The notes below the pieces were generated by a model. The model saw nothing but the letters and a program-made list of their open reading frames with translations. It was not told the origin of the DNA and ran no database searches. A stretch of 64,000 nt of DNA from Pelosinus propionicus DSM 13327 (GTDB lineage: Bacteria > Bacillota > Negativicutes > DSM-13327): assembly GCF_900114615.1 (NCBI RefSeq), contig NZ_FOTS01000002.1:1-64000 (forward strand), given 5' to 3'. Below, in pieces: positions 40,097 to 43,737 of the stretch (positions are counted from its first letter, which is position 1; every line of letters starts with the position of its first letter). The translations under genes were made by a program, and so were the position numbers.

Positions 40097-42679
40097 TTAC
40101 ATCTCGGTCTCACAATCACATAGAAATTTAAGTCGTTCCATCTTAAAATTTGCATTTGCCAGGATTTCCGGCCAAATCGCCACCATTTGGTAAATTTTAT
40201 ATTGATTCTCCTTAGGCAGACTACTCCAATTGACAAGGGTTGGATCTGTTTTCTTCGTCTTGTCTTTCACATTCCCCTTTTTCCAGCCAGCCCCTTTACG
40301 ATAGCGGCACCAATGAGTATGTTCATATGCAACAAGCATATCCAATTCTCTTTGTGTAAACTCTACAATAGGTGGAGTTTCTTTAACAGAAATAACATCA
40401 TAATTAATCGTCAGCAAAGCATTGGGAATATTTCTTGCCTGATTGCGAGCAGATTCTTTAAGATCTTCGTCAAGATCTTCCCATTTTTTTAGTAATTCAG
40501 AATCTACATTTGTATTATGCTGATTGAGTTCTCTATATTTTTCATGAATGGCAATTGCTAGACTTTCAATTTTCTCACTAAAAAAAGTATCATGCATCAA
40601 GTGGCGTAGAAATTCCTCTTCATCAACATGTAATTTCAGCTGCTCTTGGGACGGCAAGTATGATTGTTCCCATTTTTTTGCATTCGTGAGCAGACTCATT
40701 TCCAGTATGGCTTCCATAGACCTTGATTCATGTTTATATCTTGGAATTTTAAGCATTGCCCGCAATACTCCATTATCAATTTGAGCTTCGCCTTTATCTT
40801 TGATAAGGTGAGGTACTTTTCTCTCTAACAGGGCACGCAATAGCATCGCCCGACGAATAATGAATAATTGATCGTTGTGCTGATTAGTCTGATTGGGCCC
40901 CAATATATTGACATAACCTCTTAAGCGGCTTAAGAAATCCGGCCCCTTTGCCCCTTTGAAATCTAGCAAAAAGCGTTTACGTTCCTGTTCATCTTCAATA
41001 TCCTCACCACAAAAGTCTTGCAGGGTACTGCTTGTGCCGCCAGCAAATACAAAGATCGCTTTGCCAATCGAATGAAGAGAGTCCCCTTCCCTAAACACAC
41101 CATCCTGCATAGGTGCTAAAAAGTATTTTAGCCAACCCAGTTTTTCTCCAAAAGGAGAATCAAATTCATCAAAAAATACTAGGGGAAGCTTACCTTCCAG
41201 ACACACATCTCTTACCTTGTGAAAGGCATTAATTAACTCCAGGGGAGTGCTTAGTTGGGATAAATTAAAATTTAGCTTCTTAATGAGTCTAGGTGCAATA
41301 CTGGAGGCGATTTCGGTTACGCCAAAGGACTTTCCTGACCCGGGAGTTCCAAAGACTGCCATACACAACGGACGAGGTGCATTATTCGTAGAAATATACT
41401 CCGTCATTAGGTTCTTAATACTTCTGTAACTTTCGATTTCTCCCCTATCCACAGTTTGCAAATTTCCAAACTGGGCAATCGGTATAAATTTAAGCGCATC
41501 TTGTACACCATTTTTGACAATGTTATACGCAATTTCCGCCAAGTTGGTTGAGCTGTTATCTTTGAGTATATACCAGCAAGACTGACAGCTTACATTGTCT
41601 GCAAGCCGTATAACTACATCTTGCACATGTTCTTTATATATAAAGTCATCTTCACCTTCTAAGAATATCTCAGGATTAGGAAAGGGAGCAATTCCAATCG
41701 TTTTACCGAATCCTTCGATAAAATATTTCTGTGCAGCAACAATTCCTTCCCGTATCCCTTCTCCTATTGATACAGACAGCTCTTCGTTATTGTCATATCC
41801 CGCAACAATACTGCGGGCAATTCCTGACACAAAGCATGAAGTAAAACCTGACATTTTCCCCTGACTATCCGTAATAAACTCTCCCTCAAATTCGTAAGGT
41901 AAAAAATATAAACACGATTCAGGCACGCCCTCATTCTTATAATAAATAGCGCCTTCGAGACCAAAAAGAACAACAAGGTGACGACATTGCGTCAGAAAAG
42001 CAAGATTCGGACTATTGTTTATCTGCCACACAAAATCCTGTGCAGTCCTTTCCCAGGAAAGACTTCTGCTAATGTTAACCCCTTTTGAACGTAAATCATC
42101 ACTATTAATAATAACGATCGTTTTATCCATATGATTTTTCTCGAGATTTTTCCAGAGAAGAGTAGTATTGATTGGGTTACTCATTTTATATAAAATAATT
42201 GGGGACTTATCAGGCATTTTTACGGCTAAGGGCCAAAATTCTTCATTCGAATGATAGCCGTTATTTTCATCATCAATGATAACCATCTCAGCATTCGCGT
42301 CATCATTTGCAATTGGCAGCAATTTAGGCACACCAGAAGCAGGTCCAGCAAACCCTAGAAGACGCTTTACTCTGTACACTTTATCATTATTCTTTTTATT
42401 ACCAAACCTAGGAAACAGTTCTACTTCTGCCATTGCTCTAAGATATTCCTTGGATGCAATCGATTCAAGATCTTGTATGTGAGGAGACAGTATACAAGAC
42501 CCTGTTGCCAAGGTTACAAGCTTTGCTAATAACAGTGCTTCTCCTGGCATTAAAATACTATGGATGTTTAAACTATTTTGCCAATTTAACCCTGTATTAT
42601 TTTGCGGATCTGTAGTCCAATATAGAGAATTTATACATATATCTCCGGATATGGCAATTTTTAAGTTGTTGCGTTGCAT
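40097..42679 (-). CDS. orphan ribokinase-like/AAA+/RyR-repeat signalling protein
   Basis: With ATG 42677-42679 (9 bases after AAGGAG) the protein has 860 residues; positions follow this start. Residues about 5-330 resemble a PfkB/ribokinase fold, but the GxGD catalytic site reads SGFTSCF (near 278-284), so the Asp seems lost. An AAA+ ATPase follows at about 410-640: Walker A FGTPGSGKS (443-451), Walker B LVFFDEFDS (500-508). Two RyR repeats end it: about 700-757 (SLAIAIHEKYREL, ARNIPNALL) and about 775-845 (YEHTHWCRYRKGAGWKKG). RyR domains bind ligands in eukaryotic calcium channels and occur in bacterial signalling proteins. No partner gene is adjacent. Confidence 0.78.
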   Translation of the reverse strand: MQRNNLKIAISGDICINSLYWTTDPQNNTGLNWQNSLNIHSILMPGEALLLAKLVTLATGSCILSPHIQDLESIASKEYLRAMAEVELFPRFGNKKNNDKVYRVKRLLGFAGPASGVPKLLPIANDDANAEMVIIDDENNGYHSNEEFWPLAVKMPDKSPIILYKMSNPINTTLLWKNLEKNHMDKTIVIINSDDLRSKGVNISRSLSWERTAQDFVWQINNSPNLAFLTQCRHLVVLFGLEGAIYYKNEGVPESCLYFLPYEFEGEFITDSQGKMSGFTSCFVSGIARSIVAGYDNNEELSVSIGEGIREGIVAAQKYFIEGFGKTIGIAPFPNPEIFLEGEDDFIYKEHVQDVVIRLADNVSCQSCWYILKDNSSTNLAEIAYNIVKNGVQDALKFIPIAQFGNLQTVDRGEIESYRSIKNLMTEYISTNNAPRPLCMAVFGTPGSGKSFGVTEIASSIAPRLIKKLNFNLSQLSTPLELINAFHKVRDVCLEGKLPLVFFDEFDSPFGEKLGWLKYFLAPMQDGVFREGDSLHSIGKAIFVFAGGTSSTLQDFCGEDIEDEQERKRFLLDFKGAKGPDFLSRLRGYVNILGPNQTNQHNDQLFIIRRAMLLRALLERKVPHLIKDKGEAQIDNGVLRAMLKIPRYKHESRSMEAILEMSLLTNAKKWEQSYLPSQEQLKLHVDEEEFLRHLMHDTFFSEKIESLAIAIHEKYRELNQHNTNVDSELLKKWEDLDEDLKESARNQARNIPNALLTINYDVISVKETPPIVEFTQRELDMLVAYEHTHWCRYRKGAGWKKGNVKDKTKKTDPTLVNWSSLPKENQYKIYQMVAIWPEILANANFKMERLKFLCDCETEM

Positions 42680-42811
42680 ACTGATTACTCCTTGCAAGGT
42701 TATTTTTCTATTCTTAGACAGGTACAAATAATATATGGAAGAACTAATGCAGCCGATAAATACATTATATGTTAATTATGATTGAGTATCCACTTATTTC
42801 GCTTACATAAA

Positions 42812-42848
42812 AGGCACTATTTGCTCATCATCAGCAAATAGTGCCTTG
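42812..42848 (-). terminator. terminator of the LevR2-HAD unit
   Basis: Arms 42812-42826 and 42834-42848 pair perfectly over 15 bp around a 7-nt loop; the minus strand continues with TTTT. It follows the HAD gene stop by about 60 bases. Confidence 0.8.
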
Positions 42849-42909: not shown

Positions 42910-43737
42910 TCATGTCAACCGTTTATCAAGAATGTACTGGTGAATTGCATAGGCAACACCATCTTCATTATTAGACAAGGTTACATACTTGGCGGACTGC
43001 TTTACTTGTTCTTCCGCATTGGCTACTGCGATTGGATAACCAGCTAACTCCATCATGCTGATATCATTATAATTATCGCCAAATACCATTGTATTAGCAA
43101 GATTAATGCCATATTTCTCAGTAAAAAAGCGCAGTGCCTCCCCTTTGGAAGTACATTGAGCCATAATATCAAGACCATTTTTCTCAGATGAAACAATGGT
43201 CAGCTTCCCTTCTGAATTATGAAGCTGAGAGAATTCATCGATTTGACTTTTATTAAGTTTCCATATAAATAATTTCAATAGCTTTCCTAGAGGTAAAGCA
43301 TCAGACTGAGTGATCTCTTTTAACGGTACTCGCAACGAGAGGTGTACCTTAGCATTATACTGATGAAACACAGCAACTCTTTCACTATTTTTTCGATGAT
43401 AAATACAATCATAACTACTGACAGTAAAATCATAATCTTTTGCTAAACAATATTCAATTATGGTACGGTCGGTGGGTGAAGGAAGGTGCTTACTATATAG
43501 TATCTCTCCCGTATCTTGCCAGCGAACTAAGCCGCCATTACAAGAAATAATTGGTGTTGAAATTCCCAACTGACGGGCTATGTCCTTAACGTAAAGATCA
43601 TTTCTCCCAGTAGCCAATACCACCATAATCCCACGTTCTTGTAATATGCGTATGGCACTAATGTTTGCATCACTAAGAGCCATGGACGAATTCAGAAGCG
43701 TGCCATCTAAATCACATACGCAGCATTCAACATCCAT
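42910..43737 (-). CDS. HAD-superfamily Cof-type phosphatase
   Basis: The 275-residue protein is a Cof/YidA-like HAD hydrolase: DLDGTLLN (9-16, nucleophile Asp9), the C2B cap, Lys in the KGEAL region and GDNYNDISMMELAG near the C-terminus for Mg. These enzymes dephosphorylate sugar phosphates, PLP or FMN. It lies 54 bases behind the LevR-like activator and before a terminator, so it may remove excess sugar phosphate made by PTS operon 2. Confidence 0.88.
   Translation of the reverse strand: MDVECCVCDLDGTLLNSSMALSDANISAIRILQERGIMVVLATGRNDLYVKDIARQLGISTPIISCNGGLVRWQDTGEILYSKHLPSPTDRTIIEYCLAKDYDFTVSSYDCIYHRKNSERVAVFHQYNAKVHLSLRVPLKEITQSDALPLGKLLKLFIWKLNKSQIDEFSQLHNSEGKLTIVSSEKNGLDIMAQCTSKGEALRFFTEKYGINLANTMVFGDNYNDISMMELAGYPIAVANAEEQVKQSAKYVTLSNNEDGVAYAIHQYILDKRLT

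Follow-up and report, generated by a model that had tools for sequence, protein, structure and literature searches.

That RyR-domain proteins bind cyclic ADPR immune signals, or cleave them, is a recent finding made in phages. RyR domains of phages bind 2'/3'cADPR or cleave it, those of the sponge type bind and do not cleave, and RyDEP uses H75, W78, H100 and D117, with H75/D117 as its catalytic dyad (PMC13232231). In Thoeris, a TIR protein (ThsB) is encoded beside its effector, the SIR2-SLOG protein ThsA. SLOG and RyR are unrelated as folds, and the ligands of SLOG vary: in DprA it binds DNA. Here we describe a protein family that carries one or the other of these folds behind a pseudokinase-AAA+ core; no account of the pseudokinase-AAA+-RyR combination was found in the literature searched, whose coverage leaves out most subscription papers.

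The window analysed is a 64,000-nucleotide stretch of the Pelosinus propionicus DSM 13327 genome (contig NZ_FOTS01000002.1, positions 1 to 64,000). One of its genes almost certainly encodes a protein of three domains (pseudokinase, AAA+ ATPase and tandem RyR), laid out as follows:

40097..42679, minus strand: whole gene, 860 aa, with ATG start and stop included
41624..42679, minus strand: ribokinase/PfkB-fold pseudokinase, residues 1-352, from an AlphaFold2 model with Foldseek and VIA
41837..41848, minus strand: kinase GxGD site, here G278-F-T-S281 with the catalytic Asp replaced, from a 31-member alignment
40592..41488, minus strand: AAA+ ATPase domain, residues 398-696, from the family alignment and motifs
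41327..41350, minus strand: Walker A, GTPGSGKS, residues 444-451
41159..41179, minus strand: Walker B, VFFDEFD, residues 501-507
40370..40582, minus strand: RyR repeat 1, residues about 700-770, without the pocket loop
40130..40354, minus strand: RyR repeat 2, residues about 776-850, matching PF02026

A first-pass annotation of the bare sequence had proposed these same parts, to be checked by profile searches and by structure prediction of the N-terminal third. All were borne out, by different routes. PF02026 matched residues 781-833 (E 1.5e-9, 38.4 bits against a curated cut-off of 27.4 bits), AAA matches to the window copy lay below the Pfam threshold, and Pfam covered none of the first 400 residues and did not see the PfkB fold; the predicted structure of the N-terminal third was ribokinase-like. 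NCBIfam held no match to the protein.

The PfkB fold of the N-terminus is visible by structure only, since sequence methods miss it: Pfam gave no relevant match in the N-terminal third of 17 family members, and an N-terminal profile had zero matches among PDB sequences. In an AlphaFold2 model of the window protein (input 17 family members; mean pLDDT 78, pTM 0.71), this region retrieved ribokinase-family structures in Foldseek (best E 8.6e-8, prob 1.00) and aligned in VIA with Arabidopsis pseudouridine kinase 7c1x (Z 20.0, rmsd 4.3, 286 residues), with ribokinases, LacC and other ribokinase-family members at Z 17-19. The loss of the GxGD Asp, noticed in the first-pass annotation, extends to every aligned member: the family reads G-x-x-[STAV] where kinases have GxGD, and the Asp position holds S in 19 of the 31 members, T in 7, A in 2, V in 1 and a gap in 2. 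Nearly all members retain G12-D13, L196-R197, S208-W209-E210, G243 and E265-G266, which indicates that the pseudokinase is conserved rather than decayed, and the family-wide retention of G12-D13, S208-W209-E210 and G243 suggests that the fold could bind a ligand. A kinase that still acts on small molecules through a catalytic base at another position, under regulation by the AAA+ and RyR parts, would fit the near invariance of G12-D13, E210 and G243 and the nucleoside and sugar kinases among the best structural matches, but with an Asp in no aligned member we consider such an activity very improbable.

The AAA+ domain has 64% mean column identity in the family alignment. In Walker A, G444, P446, G447, G449 and K450 are present in 31/31 members and S451 in 30/31, the sole deviation being one Ser-to-Gly change at the motif end; D504 and E505 of Walker B are likewise invariant, as are R585 (in D-F-x-S-R-L) and R653 (in x-R-S), whose roles as arginine finger and sensor 2 were assigned from sequence context. 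With K450, D504, E505, R585 and R653 kept in all 31 members the motif set is complete, and the motor apparently works, judging from these residues. Because confidence in the AAA+ part of the AlphaFold2 model is low (pLDDT about 50-75), the domain was assigned from its motifs. A homologue from a Clostridial genome (L058) has a Pfam AAA match at 3.4e-6, and an AAA+ profile gave weak matches in the PDB to torsin and ClpE.

The two C-terminal segments read as RyR repeats in the first-pass annotation are homologous (hhalign probability 97.0, E 8.4e-11), and helix-helix-helix-strand occurs twice in the model, at 704-764 and 776-849, a tandem arrangement as in the animal R12 domain. A profile of the module found four matches in RyR1, the best single repeat with an i-Evalue of 1.1e-17.

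RyR is the C-terminal domain in most family members, and in one subfamily (L059-L062, L104 and L105) the same N-terminal-plus-AAA core ends in SLOG instead. When the C-terminus of this subfamily was folded alone (model pLDDT 65), VIA placed YpsA first (Z 11.4, rmsd 3.0, 135 residues), with ShosA, DprA and ThsA below it at Z 7-9 and Moco carrier protein also below it. Foldseek likewise returned YpsA first and next the ThsA SLOG domain with 3'cADPR (prob 0.99, E about 1e-3); solved structures among these matches show that ThsA SLOG binds cyclic ADPR isomers. A SLOG Rossmann-like fold was thus found in these six members and not in the window protein, and on the models the C-terminal slot is swappable between RyR and SLOG. 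The C-terminus is likely the sensor in the family. The first-pass annotation had cast the kinase fold in that role; such sensing is possible but unsupported, and the C-terminus is the likelier sensor because it has been exchanged for another cyclic-ADPR-binding fold.

In a tree of the AAA+ core, 19 rows form the window's clade (support 98/97) and 6 rows the single branch of the SLOG subfamily (100/100); the placements of the members from Methylobacterium, Streptomyces, IMG/VR and G793 are unsure because branches are long. The family was present in 18/380 genomes of the class, a count that leaves out two further matches (RyR end only, or weak), and in 5/8 Pelosinus, 6/398 genomes of a phylum sample that included the window's genome, and 11/83 genomes of the class of G501. 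Single members lie on Methylobacterium and Streptomyces plasmids; the Methylobacterium plasmid member (L005:1-7235) has as neighbours a transposase and a SIR2-family gene of very large size. Carriage by phages was considered and set aside: annotated phages contained no family match, and IMG/VR yielded one family-bearing contig, matched twice.

Within the RyR pocket, the RyDEP spacing of 0/3/25/42 fits the family exactly and points to H787, W790, D812 and I829 in the window protein, a mapping made by shared spacing rather than direct alignment to the RyDEP sequence. The repeat thus keeps His and Trp, and has D812 and I829 in place of the second His and the Asp. Among the 14 RyR members of the window's clade, the first position is His in all, the second is Trp in all but L044, nearer relatives of the window protein have Asp at the H100 equivalent where the remainder have His, and the D117 equivalent is always I, M, L or V. 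An Asp occurs there only in L058, L097 and the Methylobacterium member, and the Clostridial and Methylobacterium members keep the full His/Trp/His/Asp pocket. With the catalytic Asp position hydrophobic throughout the window's clade, hydrolysis of cADPR is not expected there. In five further members of this clade the pocket is deleted, with an AAA+ core that is nearly unchanged.

These pocket changes raise the possibility of a constitutive AAA+ remodeller, in which the clade's RyR part would be structural or protein-binding, without nucleotide sensing, and the ATPase would do a standing job on a client recognised by the pseudokinase. Selection on the gene is compatible with such a role. Copies 96-97% identical to the 860-aa protein occur in four other Pelosinus genomes, against which dN/dS is 0.045-0.07 for the whole gene, and two within-Pelosinus comparisons made by domain gave 0.045 and 0.004 for the AAA+ segment; purifying selection is at least as strong as on nadA and nadB, and identity to other genera mostly exceeds that of NadA from the same genomes. 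The clade's want of a partner gene would also suit a standing job. However, retention of H787 and, in all but L044, W790 is harder to reconcile with a purely structural module, given that sponge-type RyR domains bind without cleaving (PMC13232231), and the patchy presence described above is unlike that of a housekeeping gene. We therefore hold the remodeller to be possible, if on balance doubtful.

The gene is preceded by a Shine-Dalgarno sequence (AAGGAG, 42688-42693), and two further features lie upstream of its ATG:

42764..42792, minus strand: possible sigma-70-like promoter, TGGATA-17-TATAAT, 10/12 matches, in a region where 13 such sites were found against 10.0 expected, a count not above chance
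42811..42847, minus strand: 15-bp hairpin followed by TTAT, read from the sequence, between the upstream HAD gene and the pseudokinase-AAA+-RyR gene

The hairpin suggests a separate transcription unit, and the gene looks monocistronic. The upstream neighbour encodes a HAD-type phosphatase (42910-43737, minus strand). In P. fermentans JBW45 the pseudokinase-AAA+-RyR gene sits in the same place with otherwise the same flanks and no HAD counterpart, and the HAD gene was accordingly rejected as a partner. Adjacency to nadABC was likewise treated as chance: the NAD-synthesis genes adjoin in Pelosinus only, and the neighbours in other genera are unrelated. Close relatives aside, no neighbour gene recurs between genera of the window's clade. 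The earlier claim that the gene is tied to no neighbour therefore stands for this clade and fails for the whole family, in which Clostridial members adjoin an RyR membrane protein.

One such case is L058 (8812-14066, minus strand), where the pseudokinase-AAA-RyR gene is the third of three co-directional genes. The first encodes a 535-aa TrkA-like membrane protein with RyR (RyR by Pfam, the membrane and TrkA-like parts by eye) and the second a 448-aa TIR protein (PF13676, 1e-12), separated from the pseudokinase-AAA-RyR gene by about 41 bp. We regard this cluster as a candidate Thoeris-like locus. It is the one locus at which a TIR gene adjoins a family member; in L097, a fragment of a membrane RyR protein overlaps the ATPase gene with no TIR between, and the contig ends there. 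In the neighbourhood of the window gene and in its clade, no TIR is encoded beside the putative effector.

TIR genes also adjoin those of other RyR proteins in the phylum, as recognised by Pfam in L064, L068 and L072 and by eye in L069 and L107. In L064 (5497-14411) a TIR gene clusters with genes for a membrane protein of TrkA_N-RyR type and for a protein that begins SLOG-like and matches DUF4231 weakly, and with another TIR-like gene. In L068 (6019-9647) and L069 (4977-8602) a 578-aa RyR protein gene overlaps a TIR gene by a few bases, with leucine-rich repeats accompanying the TIR in L068, and in another Negativicute (L072:7931-9471) a stand-alone 100-aa RyR protein directly precedes a TIR-NACHT-like gene. 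Elsewhere, an 864-aa protein (L065:6816-9407, minus strand) ends in RyR and also contains a RelA/SpoT-like region and a segment that weakly matches TRPM-type SLOG (LSDAT); its N-terminus matches PADLOC PDC-S33 at 4.6e-16.

The Clostridial cluster and the patchy presence between genera would suit a role in defence for the Pelosinus protein itself, as a one-gene or Thoeris-type effector switched on by a signal from an invader or by the product of a TIR encoded at another place in the genome. A TIR partner in trans was sought and rejected: profile searches of the window's genome with TIR_2 and ThsB_TIR returned no match. TIR_2 occurs in 4/22 clade genomes (three being other Pelosinus, and one match lying below the curated cut-off) versus 21/200 in the class, so coupling of the clade to TIR is not indicated. 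PADLOC matches to the window protein were very weak (E about 0.003), and at E 0.001 there were none for family members L058, L060 and L005. The protein also carries no nuclease, NADase or membrane effector. Within Pelosinus the synteny of its gene is stable and purifying selection on it is strong, which likewise speaks against this role; we judge the role unlikely. Of the earlier proposal of a one-gene signalling or defence system, the single-gene status in this genome holds; defence has indirect support from one Clostridial TIR locus, but here TIR_2 and ThsB_TIR are missing and the match to the catalytic Asp is lost. The window's clade looks uncoupled from TIR or Thoeris-type signalling.

We suggest that the family is best explained as ligand-gated AAA+ ATPases of an NAD-nucleotide signalling network, re-purposed in the window's clade, a reading we hold with slightly less than even confidence. 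For the ATPase family, the class of ligand, the gating, the oligomerisation, the client and the biological role are what we infer here. Sensing would fall to the tandem RyR C-terminus and the work to the AAA+ part, with the inactive ribokinase fold at the N-terminus as a further domain that binds a ligand or docks a client; a cyclic-ADPR-type molecule on the RyR or SLOG domain may switch the ATPase. The wider family may have arisen in, or been drawn into, the network of NAD-derived-nucleotide signalling to which Thoeris belongs, and the window's clade would be a stand-alone regulator without a partner gene, with an RyR pocket of changed specificity or one that binds without hydrolysing. Intact ATPase motifs, replacement of RyR by SLOG, the action of phage RyR domains on 2'/3'cADPR, the RyR membrane protein beside Clostridial members (in L058 with a TIR gene), the TIR genes beside other RyR proteins of the phylum, low dN/dS, and clade-wide pocket changes set against the pocket kept in Clostridial and Methylobacterium members all argue for ligand gating. 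Against it stand the single member with an adjoining TIR gene, the absence of TIR_2 and ThsB_TIR matches from the window's genome, the varied ligands of SLOG domains and the weak AAA+ model.

More tentatively, this nucleotide-signal-controlled AAA+ family, undescribed in the papers searched, may constitute a new class of cADPR-responsive effectors whose receptor end can be RyR or SLOG and whose other end is a pseudo-ribokinase; in Negativicutes the family would have left antiviral signalling for a cellular role of its own, in which it reads an endogenous NAD-derived or ribosyl nucleotide. As a natural experiment, the exchange of RyR and SLOG on one core predicts which class of ligand binds and singles out the residues to mutate. 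Bacterial NAD-derived signals may, then, drive an AAA+ machine, an output that we did not find described in the papers searched.

Among known systems, the PfkB/ribokinase family (pseudouridine kinase, ribokinase) shares the fold of residues 1-352 and the GD motif at the first strand, whereas the GxGD Asp is absent throughout the pseudokinase family, whose kinase fold is invisible to Pfam. Torsin and Clp-type AAA+ proteins have Walker A/B and an ARS-type sensor-2 arginine in common with the window family, with profile matches too weak to settle kinship, but the latter has no recognised protease partner or second ATPase domain and differs in its flanking domains. Thoeris resembles the family in a C-terminal fold (SLOG or RyR) of the kind that binds cyclic ADPR isomers and in the TIR gene beside one Clostridial member; it differs in that most family members, like the window's genome, have no TIR partner, and in that the output is a pseudokinase-AAA+ ATPase in place of the ThsA SIR2 domain. 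RyDEP and the phage RyR (PF02026) proteins (PMC13232231) share the RyR fold and the His/Trp pocket pair at the same spacing. Unlike RyDEP, the window's clade has no His/Asp dyad, its catalytic-Asp position being hydrophobic (I829 here), and in the window family the RyR domain is fused to an AAA+ ATPase within a cellular protein.
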